Shown here piece by piece: positions 4,001 to 46,151 of a stretch of 64,000 nucleotides of DNA; the stretch's first letter is position 1; the number at the start of each line of letters is the position of its first letter. The notes under the pieces were generated by a model that worked only from the letters and a program-made list of their open reading frames with translations, was not told the origin of the DNA and ran no database searches. The stretch covers positions 62,001 through 126,000 of the forward strand of contig NZ_JAKNHJ010000007.1 of NCBI RefSeq assembly GCF_022133705.1, read 5' to 3'. The stretch comes from Varibaculum cambriense. Its GTDB lineage: Bacteria > Actinomycetota > Actinomycetes > Actinomycetales > Actinomycetaceae. The position numbers were made by a program, and so were the translations under genes.

Positions 4001-4080
4001 TGCTCTGTTAGCTTCAACTTTCGAGGACGGTTTTACCTTCACCCCGGTTGTTAGCGTTGCTGGAATTCGCTTGCTGGTTT

Positions 4081-4124
4081 TACTGGAAAATTTTCCAGTA
4101 GTTTTCAAGTAGATTTTCCAGTAG
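4081..4124. repeat. Iteron cluster 1 (11-bp TTTTCCAGTAG units)
   Basis: The cluster holds one inverted unit, TACTGGAAAA (4081-4090), followed head to tail by TTTTCCAGTAG (4091-4101), TTTTCAAGTAG (4102-4112), one A, and TTTTCCAGTAG (4114-4124). The first two units form a perfect dyad. The same layout recurs at 5716-5759 on the other side of the AlbA_2-type gene, and a variant lies at 4160-4198. Spacing of about one helical turn between direct units suggests cooperative binding of a protein. This cluster lies downstream of the gene's stop codon. Confidence 0.85.
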
Positions 4125-4159
4125 GCCATTTATGCAGATAGACAGGATATTTTTTTGAG

Positions 4160-4198
4160 CTACTAGAAAAAGAAACTTTCCAGTAGATTTTCCAGTAG
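4160..4198. repeat. Iteron cluster 2 (variant)
   Basis: The cluster contains CTACTAGAAAA (4160-4170, inverted, one mismatch to the unit), a six-base spacer, CTTTCCAGTAG (4176-4186), one A, and TTTTCCAGTAG (4188-4198). It follows cluster 1 by 35 bases and has one direct unit fewer. It lies between the small membrane protein gene and the 3' end of the AlbA_2-type gene. Confidence 0.8.
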
Positions 4199-5697: not shown

Positions 5698-5715
5698 AAC
5701 CTGCTGAATATATTT

Positions 5716-5759
5716 TACTGGAAAATTTTCTAGTAGTTTTCTAGTAGATTTTCCAGTAG
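5716..5759. repeat. Iteron cluster 3 (promoter side of AlbA_2-type gene)
   Basis: The layout is TACTGGAAAA (5716-5725, inverted), TTTTCTAGTAG (5726-5736), TTTTCTAGTAG (5737-5747), one A, TTTTCCAGTAG (5749-5759). This matches cluster 1 in unit order, spacing and orientation over 44 bases, with single C/T changes. It lies 30-75 bases upstream of the start codon at 5685 and is a candidate operator. Confidence 0.85.
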
Positions 5760-33490: not shown

Positions 33491-34525
33491 ATGCGCGTCG
33501 AATCCGGAGGTGACGAGCCTTCGTCACAGCTACTCGACCATTGGGGACGGGTAGCAGCAGACCTGCGCCTATCGGTTACCGACCGGTGTAACTTACGCTG
33601 CAGTTACTGTCTTCCCGAGGACGCCGACAGCTGGATTCCCCGCCAGGATTTACTGACTCCCGCCGAGATCGGGCGACTAACCCAGGTGGCGCTGTCTCTA
33701 GGAATTCGTAAAGTTCGTCTAACCGGAGGCGAACCCCTTTTACGCCCCGATTTAGCCGAGATTATCCACCAGATTCACCAGGCATTCATGCAGGCGGGGA
33801 TGCCGGCAGATATTGCCCTGACTACCAATGCTATTGGTTTAGCATCCCGGTTAGATTCATTAATAGCAGCCGGACTAGGGCGCATCAACATTTCTTTAGA
33901 CACGTTGGATCCCGAACGGTATTTCGCCCTCGCAAAGCGTAACCGTTTTCCCGAGGTAGCCACGGCACTGGACAAGCTACCGGGTAGCGTCCTAAAACCC
34001 ATAAAACTTAACTCGGTGATCTTAGATCAGCAGTCCTTAGAGGAAATACCGGAGCTAGTTCGCTTTGCGCTGCGGCGCGACTTCCAGTGGCGGGCAATCG
34101 AATTTATGCCCATTGGCCCCTTAGGGGATTCCGCCGCGACTCGCCCTCATGCCCGCGATATTCTCGCGCGTCTGCAGGAATGTTTTTCGCTCACCCCGAT
34201 TGAAACTGACCCGGCGGCTCCGGCGCGCCGTTGGAACGTGGCGGCCGGCAGCGACCATCCTGCCGGGATTATTGGGGTTATTGCCTCCGAATCCGCGCCC
34301 TTCTGCGCCACCTGCGACCGCACCCGCCTGTCTGCCGATGGAAAAGTCTATTCCTGCCTGTTTTCTTTATCTTTTGTCGATTTACTTACTCCTTTGCGTC
34401 AAGGTGCCTCTAACGATGAGCTGGCTCAACTTTGGCTCACCGCTCAGGCAGCTAAACCAGCTGGTCACCGCGAAATAGCAGGGGCAGGACGCAGAACCTA
34501 TTCTCTTTCTCAGATCGGAGGCTAA
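33491..34525 (+). CDS. moaA: GTP 3',8-cyclase MoaA
   Basis: This radical SAM enzyme carries the first cluster in CNLRCSYCLPE (CxxxCxxC) and the C-terminal cluster in CATCDRTRLSADGKVYSC. It ends in QIGG, the double glycine tail needed for catalysis. It makes the first molybdopterin intermediate from GTP together with MoaC. It has 344 residues; GGAGGGG precedes the ATG. moaD starts two bases after the stop. Confidence 0.96.
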   Translation: MRVESGGDEPSSQLLDHWGRVAADLRLSVTDRCNLRCSYCLPEDADSWIPRQDLLTPAEIGRLTQVALSLGIRKVRLTGGEPLLRPDLAEIIHQIHQAFMQAGMPADIALTTNAIGLASRLDSLIAAGLGRINISLDTLDPERYFALAKRNRFPEVATALDKLPGSVLKPIKLNSVILDQQSLEEIPELVRFALRRDFQWRAIEFMPIGPLGDSAATRPHARDILARLQECFSLTPIETDPAAPARRWNVAAGSDHPAGIIGVIASESAPFCATCDRTRLSADGKVYSCLFSLSFVDLLTPLRQGASNDELAQLWLTAQAAKPAGHREIAGAGRRTYSLSQIGG

Positions 34526-34527
34526 GC

Positions 34528-34773
34528 GTGATCACGGTACGTTTTTTCGCTGGGGCTGCCCAGGCAGCAGGTGTTGACAGCGCTAGAGTTCCGGCAACTG
34601 CCAACCAGACTCTGCGAGAAATTGCCCAAGCAGCCAGCAAGAACGATCTGGCATCGATCCTAGAGGTTAGTTCTTTCCTAGTAGATGGTGCCCTCGCCGA
34701 TGGCGACACTCCCCTCGGTGAATCCGCCACTAACGGACAGTTAGATGTTCTCCCTCCCTTTGCGGGGGGCTAG
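34528..34773 (+). CDS. moaD: Molybdopterin synthase sulfur carrier subunit MoaD
   Basis: This ubiquitin-like 81-residue protein ends in PPFAGG, the C-terminal Gly-Gly that is adenylated and thiocarboxylated by a MoeB-type enzyme. With MoaE it inserts the dithiolene sulfurs. The start is a GTG, and its GGAGG is formed by the last codons of moaA. moaE, its partner, lies almost 7 kb away, beyond the xylose genes. Confidence 0.95.
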   Translation: MITVRFFAGAAQAAGVDSARVPATANQTLREIAQAASKNDLASILEVSSFLVDGALADGDTPLGESATNGQLDVLPPFAGG

Positions 34774-34796
34774 GAGTTTTCAGTTCTCCGACTAGT

Positions 34797-34904
34797 GCGT
34801 GGGGGAGAAGTTTTTCCTCCCGCCCAAAGAATCGGCAAATGACTTGGTCATTTTCCGATTCTTACGCCCGCCTAGCCTGATCGGATAAAACTTCTCCCCC
34901 ACGC
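34797..34904 (+). repeat. Double-stem repeat, family 1, copy A
   Basis: Outer arms of 18 bp (34797-34814 with 34887-34904, GCGTGGGGGAGAAGTTTT and its exact complement) enclose a second stem (34827-34843 with 34847-34863, one mismatch). The linkers are conserved: TCCTCCCGCCCA on the left and ACGCCCGCCTAGCC onward on the right. Three further copies occur at 34948-35058, 45284-45390 and 45472-45577, with the same size (106-111 bases) and different but still complementary arms. It lies in the convergent gap after moaD. Confidence 0.9.
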
Positions 34905-34947
34905 AAGGGGTACAGCTTGTACGAGATTCCCGTAAGGTACGCGCTGA

Positions 34948-35058
34948 GCGTGCAGGGGCGGATTTATGCCGCAGGGTAGGCTGCGGGCGTTAAATCCGTG
35001 AAAATGCCAGAGCATTTTCCGGATTTCGGGGCGCGAGGCAAAATCCGCCCCTGTACGC
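34948..35058 (-). repeat. Double-stem repeat, family 1, copy D (inverted)
   Basis: Outer arms are GCGTGCAGGGGCGGATTT (34948-34965) with 35041-35058, complementary except one G-T pair. The inner stem is AAATCCG/CGGATTT plus AAAATGC/GCATTTT with a small internal loop (34992-35007 with 35012-35026). Read on the minus strand it has the family linkers (GCCTCGCGCCCC and ACGCCCGC). Most diverged of the four copies. Confidence 0.8.
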
Positions 35059-35093
35059 GGACGACAGCGGGAGGGAAAACTTCTTGCTGCCCG

Positions 35094-35250
35094 TTAGGGT
35101 CGCGGCCGGTAAAAGATACGAGAGGGACACGCAAGCCGCAGGTACCTTGTTTAGTCGGAAACATAGCTATTTGCCTCTCCTTACAACTCCCTATCCTCGC
35201 TTAAGCGAGGAAATTGGGGTCCCCGGAGTGCTTTTACCGTGCCAGACCCG
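35094..35250 (+). repeat. Nested-stem repeat, family 2, copy 1
   Basis: It starts TTAGGGTCGCGGCCGGTAAA and ends TTTTACCGTGCCAGACCCG. The two ends pair as GGGTC, GGC and CGGTAAAA with their complements, separated by small internal loops. The same ends, and a shared inner block (GATACGAGAGGG and GGGGTCCCCGGAGTGC), recur at 41314-41408 in the same orientation. This copy has about 60 extra bases in the middle, including the perfect palindrome CCTCGCTTAAGCGAGG (35195-35210). A degenerate third start may be present at 35284-35309. Confidence 0.85.
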
Positions 35251-35339
35251 TGACACTAGGCGGGAAAAACTTATTTTCCGCGCAAGGGTCGGAACCGGAA
35301 AAAGAGACGGCAGCAATGACAGTGCCCAAGCGGATGTAC

Positions 35340-36749
35340 CTACAGTAATTCTTCCATTAGGGGCAGATAGCGTTCCCACGCGGGATTTTCTTCTTTCGGC
35401 TGTATTTCAGCACTGAATTGTGGCTCCCAGTTTTGCCCGGGTATTTCCCCAGCAACGATTGCTGCCTGGCGGGCGGCTCCTTTAGCAACATATTCGCCGG
35501 GCTCGGGCAGGCGTAACGGAATCTGCAAAATGTCAGAAAGTATCTGCGCCAAAACCGCTGACTTAGCTGCTCCCCCTATCAGCATCGCTTTATTTACTGT
35601 GACCCCACCAGCTCGCACAGATTCAAGCGCAGCACGCATGTGGCAAGCTATACCTTCAAATGCAAGACGGGCGAAATTCTCTTTAGTCATTGCCCCGGGA
35701 GTCATCCCGAAAATACTGGCTGTTGCTTCAGGGAGATTCGGGGTACGTTCCCCGGCAAAATAGGGCAATAAAGTCATTCCTCCGCATCCGGTTTCACCCT
35801 TGGCAGCGAGCTCATCGAGTTCGAGGTAGTTAATCCCTAAGATTCGGCAAAAGTAGTCTTGTATTTGCGAACCGTTGATAGTACACGCGAGTGGTAACCA
35901 CTTTCCGGTGGCATCCATGAAACCGGTAACTCCGCTTTTGGAATCCTGGAGGGGATGGCTAGAAACTGCCGCCACTACCCCGGATGTTCCTAAAGATAGC
36001 GAAGCCTCTCCCTCCTGAAGGTTTAGCCCCAAAGCCGCACCGGCGTTATCCCCACACCCGGGTCCTAAAATACCCCCACCGAACTCTGCGCTGGCGTTAC
36101 CTACTTTTTCGAAGGAGTCCGCAATGCGCGGCAGAATTATTTTCCGCGCTTCTTCTTCGGATATTCGCAACGCATGCGCCAAAATGTCATAGCGATAAGA
36201 TCCGTCCTCACAATCCACATAACCGGTTCCAGAGGCGTCCGAGAGGTCCGTTACTAGGTCACGTAAATCACCTGACCCCCGAATTTTCCAGGTTAGCCAA
36301 TCATGGGGCAAACAAATTGCCGCGATCCGGTTTAAGTTTTCTTTTTCATGATCAGCTAGCCACCGCAACTTGGAAACCGTAAGGGAAGCAACCGGAACGG
36401 AACCTACCGCCTGAGCCCAGAAATCCGCCCCTTTTTCTTCGATTAATGCCGCTGCGCTTGCTGCTGACTTGGTGTCATTCCAAAGTTGCGCGGGTCGAAT
36501 CACTTTTCCGGCTTCATCAAGTAACACCATGCCATGCTGTTGTCCTCCAACCGCGAGCGCAGCGACATCATTGAGACCGCCAGCTTGGGTAGATGCTTCA
36601 CGAAATGCTTCTAACCAGGAACTAGGTGCTACTTCAGTCCCTTCGGGATGAGGCGTTTTCCCTTGTCGGACAATTTTCCCAGTTTCTACTTCGATTACCA
36701 GAACTTTACAAGATTGAGTTGAGGAATCTATCCCGGCTACTAAAGTCAT
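35340..36749 (-). CDS. xylB: Xylulokinase
   Basis: This FGGY-family carbohydrate kinase has the N-terminal phosphate-binding GIDSSTQSCKVLVIE and VGGQQHGMVLLDEAGKVI, with WNDTKS typical of xylulokinases, and the C-terminal IGGAAKSAVLAQILSDIL. It phosphorylates D-xylulose to xylulose 5-phosphate. It has 469 residues from the ATG at 36749, which follows AGGAG; a TTG-type start six codons upstream (36767) is less likely. The gene is divergent from xylA, with a shared regulatory region. Confidence 0.94.
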   Translation of the reverse strand: MTLVAGIDSSTQSCKVLVIEVETGKIVRQGKTPHPEGTEVAPSSWLEAFREASTQAGGLNDVAALAVGGQQHGMVLLDEAGKVIRPAQLWNDTKSAASAAALIEEKGADFWAQAVGSVPVASLTVSKLRWLADHEKENLNRIAAICLPHDWLTWKIRGSGDLRDLVTDLSDASGTGYVDCEDGSYRYDILAHALRISEEEARKIILPRIADSFEKVGNASAEFGGGILGPGCGDNAGAALGLNLQEGEASLSLGTSGVVAAVSSHPLQDSKSGVTGFMDATGKWLPLACTINGSQIQDYFCRILGINYLELDELAAKGETGCGGMTLLPYFAGERTPNLPEATASIFGMTPGAMTKENFARLAFEGIACHMRAALESVRAGGVTVNKAMLIGGAAKSAVLAQILSDILQIPLRLPEPGEYVAKGAARQAAIVAGEIPGQNWEPQFSAEIQPKEENPAWERYLPLMEELL

Positions 36750-36906
36750 TTTTCTCCTATATAGCATGGAGCGTACTTATTCACCCTTCGCTGGGCTAGA
36801 CAACTCCGTCGATGCTTACTTTGTTTTATTCTCAAACATAGGCTATTGAGCCATTAGTGATTAGTCAAGGTTATTTTCGCAGGATATATGCGTGATATAA
36901 CTCACT

Positions 36907-36956
36907 TTGATAATTGTTTTATCTCCGTGCTAGGCTTTGTTTTGTTACGCAACAAA
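36907..36956 (+). promoter_or_regulatory. Putative xylA promoter and XylR operator
   Basis: TTGATA (36907-36912) is followed at an 18-base spacing by TAGGCT (36931-36936). Immediately downstream is the perfect dyad TTTGTT-ACGC-AACAAA (36941-36956), placed where a repressor would block transcription start. The ROK-type regulator gene at 40 kb is the likely binder. For the divergent xylB, TTGACT with a TAGCCT at 17 bases is visible on the minus strand upstream, and a degenerate half-site TTTGTT lies near 36820. Confidence 0.5.
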
Positions 36957-37022
36957 TAGTCTATCTCTGGTTCAGGTGTAAAAAACACTCTTACCGATGG
37001 GCTCGTACGAGGAGGTACTTAA

Positions 37023-38369
37023 ATGTCAGATTTATGGAAAACGGATACTATTCCCTTTGTTGGAAACGACGATCCACGACAAGGACTAGGATTCCACTAC
37101 TACCAACCGGACAGGGTTGTCGCGGGGAAGAAAATGTCGGAATGGCTACGCTTCGGAGTCGCCTATTGGCACAGCTTCCAACAGCGGTTGGTGGATCCCT
37201 TCGGAGAGGGAACCGCGCAACGCCCCTACGACTCTCTAACTGACCCCCTGGAGCTGGCGTTAGCCAAAGTTGATTATTCCTTCGAGTTTTATCAAAAACT
37301 GGGTGTTGAATACTTCTGCTTCCATGACCGCGACATCGCTCCCGAAGGCGACACTTTACGGGAAACTAATCAAAACCTGGACAAGGTAGTTGACCGGATT
37401 GAAAAACGTCAACAGGAAACTGGAATAAAACTTCTTTGGAACACCTGCAACTTGTTCACTAACCCGCGGTTCCAAGCCGGGGCAGCAACTTCCCCCTTTG
37501 CAGATGTATTCGCCTACTCGGGCGCCCAGCTTAAACACAGTTTAGAAATTGCAAAACGTTTGGGTGCAGAAAACTACGTATTCTGGGGTGGCCGTGAAGG
37601 CTATGAAAACTTGTGGAACACAGATCTAAAGCGCGAACAAGACCATATGGCCAGGTTCTTCCATGCTGCGGTGGATTACGCGAAAGAGATAGGTCTTGAC
37701 TCCCAATTCCTGATTGAGCCGAAACCGAAAGAGCCCACCACTCACCAGTATGATTTCGATGCCGCCACCAGCATTGCGTTCCTCAAGACCTACGGCTTGG
37801 ACGACAGCTTCAAACTCAATCTAGAAGGCAACCACGCCAACCTTGCAGGACATAGCTATCAGCATGAAATCAGGGTTGCGCGTTCTGCCGGGATGCTCGG
37901 CTCCCTAGATGCCAACCAAGGCGACAAACTATTAGGTTGGGATCTGGATGAATTCCCCTCCGACCTGTACGAAACCACTGCAGTAATGTGGGAAGTACTT
38001 TCCGAAGGAAGCATCGGCCCTCGCGGCGGTCTCAACTTCGATGCGAAACCGCGGCGTAGCTCTTACACTGAGGAAGATCTATTCGCAGCACATATCGTGG
38101 GGATGGACTCCTATGCGGCTGGCCTACTGGTTGCCGCCAAGCTAAAAAAGGATGGCTTCATCGATGAAATCCTACAAAAACGCTATTCCTCCTTTGACCA
38201 GGGAATAGGCAAGAAGATTGAGGACGGTCAGTTCACTTTGGCAGATTTGGAGGAGTACTCCCTAGACAAGACGCAATCTGAACTGATGAATGCCAACGAA
38301 CCTGGGGAACTAGAAACCATCAAGGCTACTTTGAACAACTACTTGGTAAAAGCTCTCGCTGACGCCTAG
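37023..38369 (+). CDS. xylA: Xylose isomerase
   Basis: This TIM-barrel metal enzyme has the catalytic His in [12 protein letters not shown], the metal-site motifs [18 protein letters not shown] and [19 protein letters not shown], and a downstream [10 protein letters not shown]. It converts D-xylose to D-xylulose in the cytosol. It has 448 residues, the length of the class II enzymes. GAGGAGGT precedes the ATG. It is followed by a strong hairpin, then the sugar porter gene. Confidence 0.97.
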
Positions 38370-38395
38370 TTATTAACTGACATCTAGTCACGCCG

Positions 38396-38426
38396 GTTGG
38401 GTTCAGACATTTTGTCTGAACCCAAC
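38396..38426 (+). terminator. Hairpin after xylA
   Basis: A perfect 13-bp stem (GTTGGGTTCAGAC with its complement) closes a five-base loop ATTTT. It lies 27 bases after the xylA stop. No T-run follows, so it may attenuate or protect the mRNA rather than end transcription, and the porter gene could be partly read from the xylA promoter. Confidence 0.65.
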
Positions 38427-38504
38427 CCCACTCTCAATAAACGAGTTCCCAAAAGGAACTTACAAAACTAGCTCTGCAAGCTGCAAAGATGCGGCAAATA
38501 ATCG

Positions 38505-39866
38505 GTGATAAAAATGCGAAAAAATAAAATTTCGATGACTTTCGTATACCTGTTCGGTTCCCTAGGAGGACTACTCTTCGGATACGATACCGGCGTTATT
38601 TCAGGTGCAATTCTATTTATTCAAGACCAGCTCCACCTTGATGCCTGGGGTCAAGGTTGGGTAGTTAGCTCCGTCTTACTAGGGGCAGTAGTGGGAGCCG
38701 CCGTAATCGGTCCCCTATCTGACCGCTATGGGAGACGCCGCCTCATCCTCCTGGCTTCCATAATTTTCTTCGTTGGCGCCATTGGATCCGGCATCGCATC
38801 AGGGGTTGCGGTGCTGATTATTTCCCGTCTAATCCTCGGTTTGGGAGTCGGAACCGCCTCCGCTCTAATTCCCACCTACCTATCGGAAATGTCGCCAGTT
38901 TCCAAGCGTGGTTTCATAACCGGTTCGTTCCAACTAATGGTGATGACCGGGATTCTGCTGGCATACGTCACTAACTACGCTTTCGCTAGTTTATACACCG
39001 GGTGGCGTTGGATGCTCGGTATCGCAGCGCTTCCCTCGGCCATTTTGTTCATTGGGGCATTGATCCTACCTGAAAGTCCTCGCTACTTAGTTAAAGTAGG
39101 TCGCCCTGAAGTTGCAAGGCGCTATTTGAGCGCTATGTATAAAGGTGATGAAGCCGAAGTCGAGACAAAAATTAAGGAAATTCAGCACCAAGTTGATATG
39201 GAAGAAGGTACCTGGAGCGAACTGTTTGGCAAGACTGCCCGTCCAGCTCTCATAGCAGCCATTGGCTTGGCGATTTTCCAACAGATAATGGGCTGTAATA
39301 CCGTACTTTATTACGCCCCCACTATCTTCACTGATGTCGGATTTGGGGTTTCGGCAGCGTTACTTGCACATATCGGAATCGGCGTTTTCAACGTGATAGT
39401 GACCGTAATCGGAATTTGGTTAATGGACAAAATTGACCGCAAGAAAATGCTTATTGGAGGAGCTGTCGGTATGGCAATTTCTCTATTAGTAATGAGCATC
39501 GGCATGCATTTTTCCAGTCAATCACATATCGCAGCGTATATTTGCGCGATCGCGTTAACGATTTACATCGCCTTTTTCTCAGCAACTTGGGGACCGGTCA
39601 TGTGGGTAATGATTGGGGAAATGTTCCCTCTAAATATCCGCGGTATCGGAAACTCCTTCGGAGCGGTCATTAACTGGGGTGCCAACTCCGTGGTGTCGCT
39701 AACCTTCCCCTTCCTACTCAACTTCTTTGGGACCGGTAGCTTGTTCTTCGGATATGCGGCAGCTTGTGTACTGGCAATTTGGTTTGTACACAGCAAGGTT
39801 TTCGAAACTCGTAATCGCTCCTTGGAGGAGATTGAGGATGGTCTACGTAAGGGCAACCTAAAATAA
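38505..39866 (+). CDS. MFS sugar porter, probable xylose:proton symporter
   Basis: This 12-helix sugar porter family member has GGLLFGYDTGVISGAIL in helix 1, DRYGRRRLI after helix 2, LPESPRYLVKVGRPEVARR after helix 6, and the conserved WGPVMWVMIGEMFPLNIRG region. Specificity for xylose is inferred from the neighbours. It has 453 residues. The start is uncertain: GTG at 38505 or ATG at 38514, neither with a clear ribosome binding site. Confidence 0.9.
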   Translation: MIKMRKNKISMTFVYLFGSLGGLLFGYDTGVISGAILFIQDQLHLDAWGQGWVVSSVLLGAVVGAAVIGPLSDRYGRRRLILLASIIFFVGAIGSGIASGVAVLIISRLILGLGVGTASALIPTYLSEMSPVSKRGFITGSFQLMVMTGILLAYVTNYAFASLYTGWRWMLGIAALPSAILFIGALILPESPRYLVKVGRPEVARRYLSAMYKGDEAEVETKIKEIQHQVDMEEGTWSELFGKTARPALIAAIGLAIFQQIMGCNTVLYYAPTIFTDVGFGVSAALLAHIGIGVFNVIVTVIGIWLMDKIDRKKMLIGGAVGMAISLLVMSIGMHFSSQSHIAAYICAIALTIYIAFFSATWGPVMWVMIGEMFPLNIRGIGNSFGAVINWGANSVVSLTFPFLLNFFGTGSLFFGYAAACVLAIWFVHSKVFETRNRSLEEIEDGLRKGNLK

Positions 39867-39900
39867 GACTCGCATAAACGAAATAAATTTTTATCAATCC

Positions 39901-39963
39901 CCACCGAACTGGCAGAATAAATATAGCTGTGAAGCAAAGTATTGCCAGTTCGGTGGCATTTTT
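39901..39963 (+). terminator. Terminator after the sugar porter gene
   Basis: A perfect 14-bp stem, CCACCGAACTGGCA (39901-39914) with TGCCAGTTCGGTGG (39943-39956), is followed by CATTTTT. The 28-base loop is long for an intrinsic terminator. It separates the porter from the regulator gene. Confidence 0.7.
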
Positions 39964-39990
39964 CCTATGCTCTACTTCAAGGAGTGATAA

Positions 39991-41172
39991 ATGAGACCTG
40001 GGAAAAACGCTCAAACAATCAGAAAAGAAAATCTGCTTCTTATTCTGGAAAATGTTTTGGGGGCAGACAGATTCGTATCACGAGCGCAGGTCGCACAAAG
40101 GACAGGATTAACTCGGGCCACGGTCTCTCGTCTAGTAGATGAGTTAATTGGTTTAGACATTCTTACTGAACTCGATCCGGTTCGCACCACAATCGGGAGA
40201 CCATCTGCACCATTGGTTGCTAAAAGTGGCACTTTTTGCGTTGTGGGTATTGAAGTTGCCTTGCAATATATTTCCTTAGTGGTTACAGATTTGTCTGGCA
40301 CGGAACTCTATAAAGTTTCACAACCGATTAATGCTCGATTATCTGATCCAAAAGTAATACTAGGGCGCTGTGTGCAGATGCTAGAAGAGTGGAAAGCACC
40401 CACAGAAGTTCGTATTGCTTCAATAATAATGGCTATCCCGGGTTTAGTTTCAGACGCTAAACATCGAATTGTAACCGCGCCAAACTTGGGCTGGATTGAC
40501 ATTGAAATTACAGATTTCTTTACCTCCCACAAATATGCTGCTACCCCGCTAACAGTGGTAAATGAGGCGGATGCTTCCGCGTATTCAGTGCTGTATAAAA
40601 ATCCTGGCCAAATTGGCGATACCTCCGATTTTCTGTATTTATCGGCTGGTGTAGGGGTAGGTGCTGCATTGATATATGAAGGTCGTTTATTTTACGGACA
40701 GCACGGATGGGCAGGAGAAATCGGTCATATGTGCGTAGATACCAGTGGACCGAAGTGTAGTTGCGGTTCCAATGGCTGCTTAGAACAATATGCCGGATTA
40801 GACGCGATGTTTACTCGCGCGAATCTCCCCTTGGATGAGTCGGTAGATCCCCTAATCGAGCAGATGGTTAGGGGAAACACTCAAGCTCGAAAGACTGTTG
40901 ATTTATGCGCGAAATCCCTGGGAACCACTATCGCTAACGTATTAAATCTTTTGGATTTAAACACTGTGGTCATGGGTGGTCACTTCTCCCAGCTATTTGA
41001 CTATATGGAAGTAATCCTCATGTCGGAGCTGAAATACCGGTTACTGTCCTCCAGGTGGTCCAGCATAACCGTAAAACCGGGACAGCATGGAGCTTTCACC
41101 GCCGCACAGGGAGCTTGCCTGCTGGGATTCGAGCGCTTCCTTAACCATCCGGAACTCTGGGTTAAGCCATAA
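39991..41172 (+). CDS. xylR: ROK-family transcriptional regulator (XylR-type)
   Basis: An N-terminal helix-turn-helix (SRAQVAQRTGLTRATVSRLV, residues ~30-55) precedes a ROK sugar-binding domain with GVGVGAALIYEGRLFYGQHG and the zinc-type motif CSCGSNGCLEQYAG. Located with xylose genes, it probably represses them and is released by xylose; the dyad at 36941-36956 is a candidate site. It has 393 residues and AAGGAGTGA before the ATG. Its codons look more AT-rich than those of the moa and nar genes, suggesting a separate origin. Confidence 0.88.
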   Translation: MRPGKNAQTIRKENLLLILENVLGADRFVSRAQVAQRTGLTRATVSRLVDELIGLDILTELDPVRTTIGRPSAPLVAKSGTFCVVGIEVALQYISLVVTDLSGTELYKVSQPINARLSDPKVILGRCVQMLEEWKAPTEVRIASIIMAIPGLVSDAKHRIVTAPNLGWIDIEITDFFTSHKYAATPLTVVNEADASAYSVLYKNPGQIGDTSDFLYLSAGVGVGAALIYEGRLFYGQHGWAGEIGHMCVDTSGPKCSCGSNGCLEQYAGLDAMFTRANLPLDESVDPLIEQMVRGNTQARKTVDLCAKSLGTTIANVLNLLDLNTVVMGGHFSQLFDYMEVILMSELKYRLLSSRWSSITVKPGQHGAFTAAQGACLLGFERFLNHPELWVKP

Positions 41173-41292
41173 AAGCTGCGCTAACAGCGCTAGCGCCCGG
41201 GCGGATTTGTGCCTCAGGACAAACAGAAAATCACATTCCCAGGATTCGGATACGCACCAGCTCACCGATTTACAACCAATTCTTTTTTCGAG

Positions 41293-41432
41293 ACTGGTCA
41301 ACCTGTCCCCACATTAGGGTCGCGGCCGGTAAAAGATACGAGAGGGGCTTGAGCTGAGCCTTGCGAAGCTCACGGGGTCCCCGGAGTGCTTTTACCGAGC
41401 CAGACCCGGAACTCAGGGACAGTTTGACCAGT
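41293..41432. repeat. Nested-stem repeat, family 2, copy 2, with outer arms
   Basis: The core (41314-41408) shares ends and inner blocks with copy 1 at 35094: TTAGGGTCGCGGCCGGTAAA at the start and TTTTACCGAGCCAGACCCG at the end. Around it, ACTGGTCAACCTGTCCC (41293-41309) pairs with 41416-41432 with one mismatch. That right arm encodes the last residues of MoaE and contains its stop region. An inner TGAGCT/AGCTCA hairpin lies in the middle. The element sits in the convergent gap xylR/moaE, at the right boundary of the xylose cassette. Confidence 0.85.
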
Positions 41433-41889
41433 GGTTACTTCCATTGGAGAAGTATTGATCCTTCCAAATCGGCACCTGCGCCTTGATCTGGTCAACGATT
41501 TCGGCGCTCACGTTGAAGGCGGCGGCGCGGTGCGGGGCATCAACTACCACTAGCAGGGCGGTTTCTCCGATCTCTAAGCGCCCGATCCGGTGACGCACAA
41601 AAACTGCATCCAAACTCTCAGCGCTACCGCCAGTACCCTCGACAGATACCGCGTCCTCGCCCTCGGAAAGAGCAATCTGGATCGCGTCCCGGACGGCTTT
41701 AACCAGAAACTTTTCGGCCTCCGGATGGGCAGAATAAATCAGGTGGGTAACTCCTTGACCGCCATCGTGGTTACGGACGCAGCCGTTAAAGACTACGCGC
41801 GCGCCACTAGTGGCCGGAATACCCGCTACCCCCATAGATGAACTCAGATCTGCCAGGGATTCTTCGGTCATTTTTACATCGAATAGCAT
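41413..41889 (-). CDS. moaE: Molybdopterin synthase catalytic subunit MoaE
   Basis: Characteristic motifs are VTHLIYSAHPEAEKFLVKAV, RHRIGRLEIGETALLVVVDA, PHRAAAFNV and VPIWKDQYF with the catalytic lysine. With MoaD it converts precursor Z to molybdopterin. It has 158 residues; GGAGGGC precedes the ATG. The last residues are encoded by one arm of a repeat. It is divergent from the MoeB-like gene, with a 64-base gap that contains TATAAG. Confidence 0.94.
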   Translation of the reverse strand: MLFDVKMTEESLADLSSSMGVAGIPATSGARVVFNGCVRNHDGGQGVTHLIYSAHPEAEKFLVKAVRDAIQIALSEGEDAVSVEGTGGSAESLDAVFVRHRIGRLEIGETALLVVVDAPHRAAAFNVSAEIVDQIKAQVPIWKDQYFSNGSNHWSNCP

Positions 41890-41953
41890 CTGCCGCCCTC
41901 CTGAAGCACTCTACCGGTATTGTATAAGGCAGTAGCTACGGGAAAGGACGCGC

Positions 41954-42691
41954 ATGGTTTTTGAGCGGGATCGCCTCACCGCCACCGTGGACGGGATCGG
42001 CGAACGCGGAATTGATTTTCTACAGGCCGCGCGGGTTTTAGTGGTAGGAGCGGGTGGTTTAGGTTCGCCTGCCCTGGCCTATTTGAGTGCCGCCGGGGTC
42101 GGCACCTTGGGTATTTCTGATCCCGATCGAGTCGAACAATCAAATCTGCAACGCCAAGTAATCCATCCCGCTTCTAGCTTGGGGCAAATAAAATCGGTGT
42201 CAGCTGCGGCTACTGTCCATGCTTTGAATCCGAATGTGCGAGTGCAATTGGAACCGAAGATCACTGCTGACAATGCCCGCAGTATTATCGGCGCTTATGA
42301 CTTGGTGATTGATGCGACTGATAATTTTTCCGCTAAATATTTGCTTGCGGATACTTGCGCCGAGGTGGGGCGCCCGCACCTGTGGGGAACTTTGGTAGCG
42401 ATGAATTTTCAGATTTCAGTATTCGCGGAGGGACTCACTTTGCGGGACCTGTATCCGGCGCCTCCACCCGCGGGAACTACCCCCACTTCTCGGGTAAATG
42501 GCGTGCTGGGAGCGGTTTGCGGGCAGGCCGGATCGATTCTGGCAACTGAAGCTATCAAAATGATCGTGGGAGTAGGCGAACCACTGATTGGAAAACTCTT
42601 AATCGTCGATGCCGCCAGTGGAAAGTGGAATGTGGTGCATTTTGGGAACGGATCCCCAAAGCCAGCAACGGTATCCGGAAAGGATAAATAA
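41954..42691 (+). CDS. moeB: MoeB/ThiF-family adenylyltransferase without zinc cysteines
   Basis: This E1-like enzyme activates the MoaD C-terminus with ATP. The nucleotide-binding motif is VVGAGGLGSPALAYLSAAGV, with the arginine of SNLQRQVIH and the conserved VIDATDNFSAKYL. The C-terminal LGAVCGQAGSILATEAIKM is typical. It has 245 residues and no rhodanese domain. The two CxxC pairs that bind zinc in E. coli MoeB are missing: the region reads LYPAPPPAGTTPTSR where CxxC is expected. It could also serve a ThiS-like carrier. Confidence 0.85.
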   Translation: MVFERDRLTATVDGIGERGIDFLQAARVLVVGAGGLGSPALAYLSAAGVGTLGISDPDRVEQSNLQRQVIHPASSLGQIKSVSAAATVHALNPNVRVQLEPKITADNARSIIGAYDLVIDATDNFSAKYLLADTCAEVGRPHLWGTLVAMNFQISVFAEGLTLRDLYPAPPPAGTTPTSRVNGVLGAVCGQAGSILATEAIKMIVGVGEPLIGKLLIVDAASGKWNVVHFGNGSPKPATVSGKDK

Positions 42692-42693
42692 TC

Positions 42694-44058
42694 ATGAAAC
42701 CGGTAGATGAGTACCTGAATCAAGTATTAGCCCAGGTAAATTCGCTTCCACCTACGGTGATGCCAGTTGCGGAGGCTTTGGGTGCTACCTTGGCGGAAGA
42801 TGTTTTTGCCCGTTTCCCGGTTCCGCCTTTTACTAATTCCGCGATGGATGGGTTTGCGGTACGTTCTGGCGATCTGCCTAACGTCCTCGAAAATACGCCT
42901 ATCCCGGCGGCTACCCAAACAGAAATACCCGCAGAGCCGGTGCCTGCCGGTGCGCCCAGGCCAGCCGAATTGCCCAGCGCACCCGGGGATGATGGGGCGC
43001 AAAAATCCTTGCCTTTAACCCTGCCAGTCGAGGCCGATATTGCCGCTGGCGATAACGGGGATTACCAGCTCACTCCCGGGCATGCTATCCGGATTATGAC
43101 TGGGGCGCGGATGCCTGCCGGTGCCGATACCGTGATTAAAGTGGAGGACACTACCCTGCCGCCTGGCCCACTTGACCTGCCTAAAGAGGTCACGATTGAG
43201 CGTTGCCCGCGTGCGGGAGCCAATGTGCGTAAAGCAGGCGAGGACGCCGCCGTGGGTGACCTGGTACTAACGGCAGGAACAGTCCTTACTCCCGCGGCAC
43301 TTTCTTCTGCGGTTTCGATTGGTTATTCAGAGTTACCGGTGTATCGCCGCCCGCGAGTAGCCGTAATCTCTACCGGATTGGAGCTGCGTCCGGCAGGCGC
43401 GAGCCTAAAGGGAGCGCAAATCCCAGACTCGAATTCGGTGCTGCTAGAAGCGTTGCTGCGCCGCCAAGAGGTAGTCGTGTCGGGGGTTTACAGTTCCGAT
43501 GATGAACCGGAAGTGTTCGCGAAAACCCTGAGTCTAGCGGCCCAGGGCGCAGATTTGATTGTCACCACTGGCGGAGTGAGCGCTGGCGCCTATGACGTGG
43601 TTAAACAAGTTGGTTTATCGGGAGGTTTAGCGTTTACCAAAGTGGCGATGCAGCCAGGGAAACCGCAGGGATTTGGCACTATTCCGGCTCCTGATGGGGC
43701 TAAGGTTTATGTGGCGACTTTACCCGGCAATCCGGTCAGTGTGTTCGTGTCTTTCCACGTATTCGTGCGCCCGGTTTTGGCTGCTTTGGCTGGTAAACAG
43801 GGGCGTGCGGCGCTGCAGACTCGCGCCGCCACTACTAAGGTGGCCTGGAAGTCCCCTGCCGGTAAACGACAGTTCGTGCCGGTACATTTGACCGAGGCAG
43901 AGCGGGTAGGAGACACCCCCACGGTTACTCCGACTCACCGATTAGGGGCGCGTTCGCACTTTGTGGCTTCGCTACATCAGGCGAATGCGCTGGCAATCAT
44001 CCCGGAGGACGTAACCGAAGTGGAGCAATGGAGTCTGGTAGATGTGTTGCCCTGTTAG
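42694..44058 (+). CDS. moeA: Molybdopterin molybdenumtransferase MoeA
   Basis: The N-terminus ends in FTNSAMDGFAVRSGDL. Further motifs are IMTGARMPAGADTVIKVED, VISTGLEL, the molybdopterin-binding VTTGGVSAGAYDVVK, MQPGKPQGFG and TLPGNPVSVFVSF. It inserts molybdate into adenylated molybdopterin. Residues about 70-115 form a Pro/Ala-rich insertion absent from compact MoeA proteins. It starts two bases after the moeB stop. Confidence 0.95.
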   Translation: MKPVDEYLNQVLAQVNSLPPTVMPVAEALGATLAEDVFARFPVPPFTNSAMDGFAVRSGDLPNVLENTPIPAATQTEIPAEPVPAGAPRPAELPSAPGDDGAQKSLPLTLPVEADIAAGDNGDYQLTPGHAIRIMTGARMPAGADTVIKVEDTTLPPGPLDLPKEVTIERCPRAGANVRKAGEDAAVGDLVLTAGTVLTPAALSSAVSIGYSELPVYRRPRVAVISTGLELRPAGASLKGAQIPDSNSVLLEALLRRQEVVVSGVYSSDDEPEVFAKTLSLAAQGADLIVTTGGVSAGAYDVVKQVGLSGGLAFTKVAMQPGKPQGFGTIPAPDGAKVYVATLPGNPVSVFVSFHVFVRPVLAALAGKQGRAALQTRAATTKVAWKSPAGKRQFVPVHLTEAERVGDTPTVTPTHRLGARSHFVASLHQANALAIIPEDVTEVEQWSLVDVLPC

Positions 44059-44116
44059 GGAGACATTTATAGCACCAGAGAGCAGTCCGGGCGCCAGGAA
44101 AGAAGAAGGAGCAGTT

Positions 44117-44644
44117 ATGGAAGACAAAGAGGCACAGCACTTACCCCACTTAAATGCGTCTGGGCAGGCACATATGGTGGATATTACCGGCAAGCAACCC
44201 ACAGTGCGCGAGGCGCGGGCACGCGCTTTTGTGCAGTGCTCTCCGAAGATTATGGCGGCTTTGCGAGCCGGAGAAGTCCCGAAAGGGGATGCTTTGGCGG
44301 TGGCGCGTATCGGCGGAATCGCGGCATCCAAACGTACCCCGCTATTACTTCCCTTAGCGCACCCGATTGGGGTGCATTATTGCGCGGTGGATCTCCACCT
44401 GGCGGAGGAAGGGGTAGAGATCCTCGCTACCTGCCGCACTGCTGACCGCACCGGAATCGAAATGGAGGCACTCACCGCCGCTTCCGTGGCCGCTTTAAAC
44501 CTGATTGACATGGTGAAAGGGGTCGACAAGATGGTATCTATCCGCGAGTGTTACGTCCTGGAAAAACGAGGCGGACGCTCGGGTACTTGGGTGCGCCCCA
44601 GCTGCGAGCAGGATGCTACCGGGAGGGATGTAAATCATGACTAG
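44117..44644 (+). CDS. moaC: Cyclic pyranopterin monophosphate synthase MoaC
   Basis: MoaC works with MoaA to form cyclic pyranopterin monophosphate. Motifs are HMVDITGKQPTVREA, the catalytic-region IAASKRTPLLLPLAHPI and TGIEMEALTAASVAALNLID, then DMVKGVDKMV. The ATG at 44117 follows AAGGAG and gives 175 residues; the frame is open to 44042 inside moeA but that leader is unlikely. The 3' end overlaps mobA by eight bases. Confidence 0.95.
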   Translation: MEDKEAQHLPHLNASGQAHMVDITGKQPTVREARARAFVQCSPKIMAALRAGEVPKGDALAVARIGGIAASKRTPLLLPLAHPIGVHYCAVDLHLAEEGVEILATCRTADRTGIEMEALTAASVAALNLIDMVKGVDKMVSIRECYVLEKRGGRSGTWVRPSCEQDATGRDVNHD

Positions 44645-45257
44645 TTCACCGCAGCATCTCAATGGGATGATTGTGCTGGCAGGCGGGACGGGAAAACGTC
44701 TGGGTGGGCGCAGTAAACCTGATCTGCTGATTGCCGGGGATCGCCTTATCAGCTGGACACTGTCTTTCTTGGCGAAGGTTCCCACCGTGGTGGTGGCGCC
44801 CGAGGGGCTTGAGGTTCCCGAAAAGGTTTTCCTCACTATGGAGGAGCCCCCCGGTTCGGGACCGGCAGCCGGGATAGTTGCAGGCTGGCACCGTTTAGCT
44901 GACTCGTTCGTGTTTTCGCCCTCCGATATTATCGGGGTTTGCCCGGTTGATGCTCCACTTTCCGGTTTTGCTTTGCGGCAGCTGGGCAGGCAACTCCAGG
45001 AGATGAATGAGGAGGAACCGGGAAAAGAAAAAATTCTTTTAGGGCAAGTTGGAGAGGTTACCCAATATGTCCTGGGGGCGTTTACCGTGAGGGCGCTCAT
45101 GGAGATGGCGCGATCTAATCCTTTAAACCGTTCAGTGCGGGGATTACTAGGTGAAATCGGTTTTGCCACTAGCGAGATTTCCCCTAACTATGCCCGCGAC
45201 GTGGACACTCCCGCAGATATCGCCCCGGTAACCGAGCTGCTACGCATTTCCCGCTAG
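44637..45257 (+). CDS. mobA: Molybdenum cofactor guanylyltransferase
   Basis: This nucleotidyltransferase has LAGGTGKRLGGRSKPDLLI at the N-terminus and the loop PPGSGPAAGIVAGWH, with a later VDAPLSGF metal-site aspartate. It attaches GMP to Mo-molybdopterin to form the MGD cofactor used by NarG. It has 206 residues. GGGAGGG precedes the ATG inside moaC. The context and a DUF6457 gene in the cluster support the call. Confidence 0.88.
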   Translation: MTSSPQHLNGMIVLAGGTGKRLGGRSKPDLLIAGDRLISWTLSFLAKVPTVVVAPEGLEVPEKVFLTMEEPPGSGPAAGIVAGWHRLADSFVFSPSDIIGVCPVDAPLSGFALRQLGRQLQEMNEEEPGKEKILLGQVGEVTQYVLGAFTVRALMEMARSNPLNRSVRGLLGEIGFATSEISPNYARDVDTPADIAPVTELLRISR

Positions 45258-45283
45258 CTAGACGAGGACACCGGGGCAAGTCG

Positions 45284-45390
45284 AGCGGGGGAGTAGATTG
45301 TCCCTCCTGCCCAAGAATTCGGAAAACGTAGCGCCGTTTTCCGAATTCTTATGCCCACCGCGCCTGCTCGGAACAATCTACTCCCCCGCT
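45284..45390 (+). repeat. Double-stem repeat, family 1, copy B
   Basis: Outer arms AGCGGGGGAGTAGATTGT (45284-45301) and 45373-45390 are perfectly complementary over 18 bp. The inner stem is AAGAATTCGGAAAACG (45313-45328) with 45335-45350, also perfect. Compared with copy A, many stem positions differ on both sides in a compensating manner, while the linkers (CCTCCTGCCC; TGCCCACC) stay similar. Confidence 0.9.
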
Positions 45391-45471
45391 ACGGTTAGTT
45401 ATCCCTCGGTACAAGCCCACCCCTGCAAGCTAAGCGTGTTTCTCCCTTTCCGGTTACTGAAGACATCTGCT

Positions 45472-45577
45472 GCGCGGGGAGAAGTTTTATCCGAGTCGGC
45501 TAGGCGGGCGTAAAAATAGGAAAATGCTTTGGTCATTTTCCTATTTTTTGGGCGGGAGGAAAAACTATTCCCCGCGC
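45472..45577 (-). repeat. Double-stem repeat, family 1, copy C (inverted)
   Basis: Outer arms 45472-45488 and 45561-45577 pair at 15 of 17 positions. The inner stem AAAAATAGGAAAATG (45512-45526) with 45534-45548 is perfect. Read on the minus strand, the left linker TCCTCCCGCCCA is identical to that of copy A and the right linker (ACGCCCGCCTAGCC...) differs at only a few positions, which proves common origin. Confidence 0.88.
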
Positions 45578-45599
45578 CTTTGGGGGCGCGCCCGAATAT

Positions 45600-46151
45600 T
45601 TAATCCAGGGGGAAAGCTTCGGGATCTAGCTGCTCTAATAGGTGGGGCAATAACGGGCCGAGGACGCTCAGGGTGTCGCGCACTCCACCTCGCGAGCCGG
45701 GCGCATTGGCTACGATCGCGCCCGCGGCGCCACGAGCAGTGATTCCCACCAGGCCGCGCGAAAGTGACGCGAGCGGAGTGGCTTTTAGACCCTGCTGGCA
45801 GATTTGCCAGGCAATCCCGTCCAGACGTGCCTCCAACAAGGGGGCAGTTGCTTCCGGCGTCAGGTCGCGTTCGGTAATCCCCGTACCGCCGGTAGTAATT
45901 ACTACTCGCGCGCCCTCGGCAATAGCCGCGCGAATTTCACTTTGCACCGACTCGATTCCGTCGCTCACTACCCGCACTCGATCAGCATTGATTCCGTACT
46001 TACTCAACAGCTCTTGCGCTAACGGCCCCGACCTATCTGGACGTTCGCCGATTTTACAACGGTCTGAAACCGTTATTACCGCACCTGCGGCACGACCGCG
46101 TAATTTTTGCAGTTTTTTCTCTTTTAAATGCGCATGCGGGTCTACTGACAA
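45600..46151 (-). CDS. mog: Molybdopterin adenylyltransferase-type protein (Mog/MoaB)
   Basis: This MogA/MoaB-fold protein has AVITVSDRCKIGERPDRSGP, the molybdopterin-binding VVITTGGTGITERDLTPEA, and IVANAPGSRGGVRDTLSVL. It adenylates molybdopterin ahead of MoeA, or is a MoaB-type paralogue; sequence alone does not separate them, but it is the only candidate here. It has 183 residues and a TTG start preceded by GGAGGG. Confidence 0.88.
   Translation of the reverse strand: MSVDPHAHLKEKKLQKLRGRAAGAVITVSDRCKIGERPDRSGPLAQELLSKYGINADRVRVVSDGIESVQSEIRAAIAEGARVVITTGGTGITERDLTPEATAPLLEARLDGIAWQICQQGLKATPLASLSRGLVGITARGAAGAIVANAPGSRGGVRDTLSVLGPLLPHLLEQLDPEAFPLD

Follow-up and report, generated by a model that had tools for sequence, protein, structure and literature searches.

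A 64,000-nucleotide stretch of the Varibaculum cambriense genome (assembly GCF_022133705.1, contig NZ_JAKNHJ010000007.1, positions 62,001 to 126,000; hereafter the window) carries four copies of a palindromic element of about 103-111 bp with two stems. Read in one orientation, the element has a left and a right outer arm, and between them an inner hairpin with a C-rich linker on either side. The arms join the interior at TTTT and AAAA in most copies. The right arm also contains an unpaired base, most often T, which separates the A-run from the final three pairs of the outer stem. A preliminary description had noted that the arms of the four copies differ yet remain complementary, and had proposed bidirectional terminators, mobile elements resembling repetitive extragenic palindromes (REPs) or structural RNAs. 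Our analysis favors, at a probability of roughly 0.58, the view that the copies are dispersed, non-autonomous palindromic DNA repeats of a family specific to the genus, that they resemble bacterial interspersed mosaic elements (BIMEs) or miniature inverted-repeat transposable elements (MITEs), and that template switching at hairpins probably homogenizes their arms and inverts their interior. A hairpin or cruciform would allow DNA polymerase to jump from one arm to the other as its template; such switching would homogenize the arms, generating seemingly compensatory changes, and would occasionally invert or exchange the interior. Copies would spread by way of some activity, with pairing renewed during copying, and transcript ends would be affected only incidentally, if at all.

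Copy number, distribution and stem covariation

The preliminary description named as refuting a genome search that found no further copies together with stem changes that showed no covariation above chance. We searched the window's genome (G000; 2.23 Mb, 73 contigs) with a covariance model, R2, built from 33 of its own copies, and obtained 109 matches at E ≤ 1 and 67, a few of them partial, at E ≤ 1e-5, just above which opposite-strand echoes begin; with these matches and the covariation given below, the description is not refuted. Blastn with copy 1 returned 66 pieces from the same genome, and within the window R2 at E ≤ 1e-5 recovers exactly the four copies and no other. All six Varibaculum genomes contain the element, with 46 to 91 R2 matches each at E ≤ 0.01, echoes included. 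Across the bacterial family, in a genome set drawn evenly from a larger group under stricter filters, 7 of 151 genomes match at E ≤ 1e-4, namely the six Varibaculum genomes and 1 of the 145 others. The sole copy outside the genus, in genome G136, is embedded in a 1.4-kb segment (L229 2761-4193) that shares about 90% identity with Varibaculum loci L097, L206 and L216, and because its surroundings are so Varibaculum-like it was probably acquired by transfer between genera. An exact-pattern scan of a collection of named genomes found 48 stretches, all in V. cambriense DSM 15806, V. vaginae and a record titled Tissierella sp. Marseille-P2918, which appears to be a mislabelled Varibaculum; identical match scores suggest that our genomes G001, G005 and G004 are these three, respectively. 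Copy 1 has no match in plasmids and phages at E ≤ 0.01, and the literature searches made listed no paper on the family. Across the genomes searched, the family is nearly absent outside Varibaculum.

The stems of this family covary far above chance. In the alignment of 33 own copies, both-sided change affects 29 of 38 pairs, whereas shuffles give 19.1 and none of 500 reaches 29; sliding the partner columns by one lowers the proportion of paired cells from 88% to 57% or less. Both-sided change extends to 34 of 38 pairs among 71 own matches (3 echoes included) and to 32 of 38 among 78 matches from three other named genomes that took no part in model building (6 echoes included), although both of these alignments were fitted to R2 and are biased towards the structure. 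All four window copies also fold better than their own shuffles (z from -5.3 to -10.6 in six folds, covering both strands for copies 1 and 2).

Changes in arms and interiors at orthologous sites

For comparison between species we used 220 deduplicated elements from six species, sampled fully in the window's own genome (68) and at 22 to 43 in each of the others; 181 of the 220 could be parsed into arms and interior. With 259 pairs from multi-copy sites put aside, single-copy orthologous sites gave 49 same-orientation and 32 flipped pairs before parsing, and 47 and 26 after it. The parsed pairs cover 29 sites, 12 of which occur in both orientations; at an arm identity of at least 0.8 there remain 23 sites, 9 with both orientations, and at 0.9 the numbers are 22 and 7. 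The best-matching arms are those of the orthologue in 29/47 same-orientation and 19/26 flipped pairs, whereas the best-matching interior is the orthologue's in only 21/47 and 6/26. Because the orthologue matches best in the arms more often than in the interior, arms tend to stay with their locus while interiors tend to turn and be swapped.

We then compared the 30 bp outside the arms, in the frame of the neighboring genes, with a 99% null. Five of the 26 flipped pairs, at three sites, agree on one side beyond this null, 7 agree only in the turned frame and 14 are undecided; among same-orientation pairs, 9/47 pass on both sides, 21 on one and 17 on neither. The flank-supported inversions are L126 versus L155, L095 and L209; L104 versus L151; and the gap 3' of the xylulokinase gene, L175 versus L176. 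The clearest is L126, where by eye flanks and arms match those of L155 and L095 and the interior is reversed. Since their flanks agree only in the turned frame, 7 of the 26 flips are larger than the interior. The view that all flips are clean interior inversions was accordingly dropped, as the flank check leaves 5/26 pairs, and at sites with undecided flanks a flip could possibly be a mere loss from an inverted pair. Separately, at one orthologous site L120, L162 and L186 differ from L127 and L219: relative to the genes, the turned stretch takes in the element plus 18 bp or more of its flank (cagctgg..), and the interior is of a different subtype.

The arms themselves change mostly on one side when they change in place. 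Among non-overlapping orthologous pairs whose arms are at least 0.75 identical (52 pairs), we counted 71 one-sided changes against 13 compensated ones, 5 of which stem from a single pair, and 3 further two-sided changes. The 16 two-sided changes nevertheless exceed the 4.2 expected under independence, and 0 of 10,000 permutations reach 16, an excess that fits arm homogenization. Compensation is more frequent between paralogues of matched divergence: with 1-3 differing positions, the ratio of compensated to one-sided changes is 4:36 for orthologues and 35:45 for paralogues (p 1.6e-4), with 2-4 positions it is 6:35 and 70:52 (p 1.4e-6), and with 1-2 positions 2:26 and 11:29 (p 0.06). This matched comparison replaces an initial contrast (p 4e-25) that rested on non-independent pairs of unmatched divergence. 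As far as sequence comparison can tell, these ratios fit a renewal of arm pairing mainly on copying. The preliminary description had held the structure to be either under selection or actively copied; dispersal, intergenic position, inverted pairs and nesting support REP-like dispersal in general, and the largely one-sided changes in place, the interior inversions and the mismatches described below speak against a terminator or structural RNA kept by selection.

In 164 distinct arm pairs, which are mutually non-independent, the sense-biased canonical strand has 129 A·C or C·A mismatches but only 36 that are G·T or T·G. The direction is the same in all six genomes (A·C:G·T of 36:8 in the own genome, 30:7 in G002, 15:6 in G003, 18:7 in cambriense, 11:2 in vaginae and 7:1 in P2918), with p<0.05 in four, and inner stems show the A·C bias in five of six genomes, vaginae being reversed (3:8). 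A structural RNA would tolerate G·U on its transcribed strand; because A·C exceeds G·T on the sense-biased strand, a sense-RNA signature is excluded. The excess may reflect either a folded complementary strand or strand-biased mutation. Rfam reports only 3 tRNAs in the whole window at gathering threshold, and three weak, unrelated matches in 34700-45700 at E ≤ 5. Together, the lack of a relevant Rfam match, the type of mismatch and the one-sided arm changes at orthologous sites led us to reject a structural RNA, the third of the explanations first proposed.

Gene context, candidate enzymes and the window copies

Gene context was read from a home-made gene caller. The 68 own copies lie in convergent (29), tandem (28) and divergent (3) gaps or at locus edges (8), the 72 copies of the named genomes likewise (29, 35, 2 and 6), and no called gene in either set spans a non-edge copy. 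Among gaps of the own loci, 18 convergent, 19 tandem and 3 divergent ones bear a copy, compared with 9, 45 and 28 gaps of at least 80 bp without one; with this background from the same loci, convergent gaps are enriched over the rest (p 5e-5). Convergent gaps thus make up 18/40 gaps with a copy and 9/82 without one. Of 39 neighboring pairs less than 500 bp apart, 27 are arranged +-, 1 -+, 5 ++ and 6 --. Several full copies have a left-only piece immediately 5' of them, and some have a right-only piece on the 3' side. A second double-stem family, with outer arms GGGTCGCGGCCGGTAAAAG / CTTTTACCGAGCCAGACCC and a variable inner stem, is interleaved with copies of the main one; a motif search of the loci fetched from six species found 27 copies of it, and its orientation varies at 2/6 orthologous sites. 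The main family is therefore, as BIMEs are, intergenic, alternating in orientation and mixed with other repeats.

This context also bears on the idea that the elements are transcription terminators or 3'-end RNA stabilizers under selection for a folded transcript, convergent pairs serving both genes. The enrichment in convergent gaps agrees with it, as do the sense orientation of single copies (to the nearer gene in 19/23 in convergent gaps, and in 21/32 in tandem gaps), the conservation of arms above flanks and the two-sided changes in place above chance. However, reading the sequence after each of the four window copies reveals no T-run of an intrinsic terminator, the A·C excess on the sense-biased strand and the mostly one-sided arm changes do not suit a folded transcript, orientation varies between species at 12/29 sites, and in several species separate G-rich hairpins that lack the element occur close to some of these gene ends. 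We consider selection for a folded transcript unlikely to explain the family; of the bidirectional terminators first proposed, what may survive is a side role in transcript ends. A cassette inside host terminators was also considered and rejected, as the element-free G-rich hairpins adjoin element sites and none that we found was clearly an empty version. An arms-only hairpin was seen at L182 1606-1634. In one comparison, L098/L141 versus L211, imperfect direct repeats of about 14 bp flank an extra segment, consistent with either an insertion or a deletion; the 12 comparisons, with two usable sites, yielded no further clean empty site.

The preliminary description had suggested looking for a REP-associated transposase. 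Y1_Tnp (PF01797) is found in 0/6 genomes at E ≤ 0.01, with a control search positive in 6/14 known genomes. Reverse transcriptase was discarded as mobilizer, RVT_1 occurring in just 3/6 genomes. Serine recombinases number 1 to 9 per genome; the only one in G000 (G000:C7 56367-57875) is 100% identical in G001 and has no relative at 1e-10 in the other four, so that with a relative in 1/5 other genomes, or a presence in just 2/6, it too was discarded; it is probably part of a mobile element shared by G000 and G001. Tyrosine recombinases number 2 to 7, and the two of G004, both high-scoring, we take to be XerC and XerD. Among the four enzyme families searched, only this Xer-like pair can be common to all six genomes. 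At G000:C3 5203-5751 and 5853-5960, in the own genome, a copy lies directly behind one of the two Xer-like tyrosine recombinase genes, and in G005 and G001 a copy is likewise close behind such a gene.

These searches weigh on two further explanations. In the first, a single-strand DNA transposase or recombinase that reads structure, in the manner of REP with its REP-associated tyrosine transposase (RAYT) or of attC with IntI but from a different family, would require pairing at each move. Compensation chiefly between paralogues, the conserved unpaired T near the TTTT/AAAA junction, mismatches that become G·T when read on the complementary strand, and a composite of two copies and a spacer found nearly identical at the unrelated loci L144 and L156 would all suit such an enzyme; within the four enzyme families searched, the absence of Y1_Tnp, RVT_1 in only half the genomes, the Xer-like pair as the only tyrosine recombinases of G004 and the narrow distribution of the lone G000 serine recombinase make it quite improbable. 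The composite (L144 3691-4009, L156 3501-3816) consists of a long-middle copy of 167 bp, a common spacer and an inverted copy, and is, from its sequence, the top candidate for a recent joint move. In the second, the elements would be programmed invertible switches (invertons) whose interior is flipped by a site-specific recombinase to control neighboring genes. Single loci do occur in both orientations with like arms, at the three flank-supported sites and between species only. Yet the arms vary by locus, the near-constant part being TTTT/AAAA and the three adjoining pairs, and recombinase sites are not known to vary from locus to locus in this way; few copies lie in divergent gaps, and none of the recombinase families searched is represented in all six genomes by a member other than the Xer-like ones. 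We regard programmed switching as very improbable.

Several observations weigh against our preferred account of template switching in a dispersed DNA repeat. None of the 26 flipped pairs passes the 99% flank test on both sides together. The contrast between orthologues and paralogues is not significant at exactly one differing position (0:7 versus 3:10, p 0.5) and fades with divergence, orthologues with 5-6 differing positions showing 12 compensated and 14 one-sided changes. Orthologous arms are 0.88-0.89 alike, against 0.60-0.69 for the adjacent 40 bp (random 0.56), which could mean constraint. The searches for Y1, RVT_1, tyrosine and serine recombinases gave no mobilizing enzyme, DDE and other families not having been searched, and neither a target duplication nor a fresh insertion was demonstrated. 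The patterns of arm homogenization and of interior inversion are both present in the family and are not tied to one event; template switching itself is what we infer from them.

The four window copies lie where the preliminary description placed them (Table 1), but not in one shared orientation: copies 2 and 4 are reversed relative to 1 and 3, and copies 1 and 2 form an inverted pair. Copies 1 and 4 carry the linkers said to be conserved without change, copy 3 has them slightly altered, and in copy 2 they have clearly diverged. The neighbors with NCBIfam support are moaA (33491-34525), xylulokinase (35340-36767) and a molybdenum-cofactor domain (45600-46151), so the reported molybdopterin neighborhood holds for the window loci, as a local feature only. 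The 44637-45257 protein has no NCBIfam match at 1e-10; we presume the gene to be mobA. It is present in 5/6 genomes, and in the own genome and G002 both copy 3 and copy 4 occupy the gap behind it; in G003 copy 3 is kept and copy 4 mostly replaced by a second-family repeat, in G005 the gap is rearranged and in G001 it holds no copy. Behind xylulokinase, G002 has a full copy in place of the truncated remnant. Further AT-rich palindromic repeats of the TTTTCCAGTAG type, 5 copies, occur at window positions 4080-4198 and 5715-5759.

Table 1. Positions of repeat copies, their parts and related features in the window
Feature	Position	Strand	Basis
Copy 1, full element	34797..34904	+	sequence, fold, R2 match 105.6 bits
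Copy 1, left arm	34797-34814	+	
Copy 1, linker between left arm and inner hairpin	34815-34826	+	
Copy 1, inner hairpin	34827-34863	+	
Copy 1, linker 3' of inner hairpin	34864-34877	+	
Copy 1, spacer bearing conserved unpaired T	34878-34886	+	
Copy 1, right arm	34887-34904	+	
Copy 2, diverged subtype, arm tops GGATTTTGCC/GGCATAAATCC	34948..35058	-	R2 match 71.2 bits
Left-end-only remnant of the family, directly 5' of copy 2	35060..35095 (approximate)	-	motif scan
Second double-stem family, longer and different middle	35094..35253	+	
Truncated remnant behind xylulokinase	35255..35283 (approximate)	-	comparison L174/L175/L176
Second double-stem family, typical copy, 98 bp	41314..41411	+	
Copy 3, sense orientation behind 44637-45257 gene	45284..45390	+	R2 match 107.5 bits
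Copy 4, sense orientation behind 45600-46151 gene	45472..45577	-	R2 match 97 bits

Significance and comparison with known systems

Covariation is standard evidence for conserved RNA structure. The Varibaculum family covaries strongly, yet its orthologous sites point to a cause at the level of DNA. It is thus a natural case for distinguishing RNA-level from DNA-level causes of covariation; complementary stems do not by themselves have to imply a functional RNA. A bolder picture, which we put forward tentatively and hold to be doubtful, is of a family that spreads as a shape and not as a sequence, each insertion having its own palindromic arms around a shared interior that can be flipped or swapped where it stands, and some activity reading the folded complementary strand. 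If it were true, RNA-like covariation would arise without RNA function. Each genome also supplies hairpins by the dozen, many of them with arms peculiar to their locus, on which template switching and small inversions could be measured in a bacterium.

Among known repeats, REP, BIME and REPIN sequences with their RAYT (TnpA-REP) share with this family dispersed intergenic palindromes, inverted pairs and a mosaic with other repeats, and one article (PMC3733652) reports REP inserted within larger palindromes. A REP is a palindrome of 20-40 bp, however, whereas the Varibaculum element has about 108 bp, two stems and two linkers, and its arms vary from locus to locus. It has no Y1 transposase and no noteworthy enrichment of the tags GTAG or CGTC: at the stem feet of 220 elements, GTAG occurs 9 times on the five-prime and 7 times on the three-prime side and CGTC 11 and 3 times, with about 6 expected each. 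The suggestion of REP-like mobile elements is thus upheld in dispersal, intergenic position, inverted pairs and nesting, and fails in the REP/RAYT tag and transposase: the family functions like a BIME or MITE without them. MITEs have terminal inverted repeats with target duplication; inverted arms are present here, and the extra segment between direct repeats at L098/L141 fits insertion as well as deletion. Integron attC sites combine variable sequence with a conserved hairpin shape and extrahelical bases; variable sequence, hairpin shape and an unpaired base recur here, with no cassette arrays in the Varibaculum loci read. Invertons likewise hold a segment between inverted repeats in both orientations, but the Varibaculum copies sit at gene 3' ends rather than promoters, and no dedicated recombinase was found in the families searched.

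The likeness to template-switch changes at short inverted repeats lies in the homogenized arms and inverted spacer. A study in yeast (PMC8604942) describes template switching that homogenizes inverted-repeat arms and inverts spacers, and another (PMC8794818) describes the same pattern for rRNA hairpins. In chloroplast hairpins, according to a further report (PMC12928735), a segment of 5-50 bp flips between inverted repeats of 11-24 bp. The Varibaculum segment also lies between inverted repeats, but is about 70 bp long and present in dozens of copies per genome, as one multicopy family with a shared interior that is also exchanged between copies.

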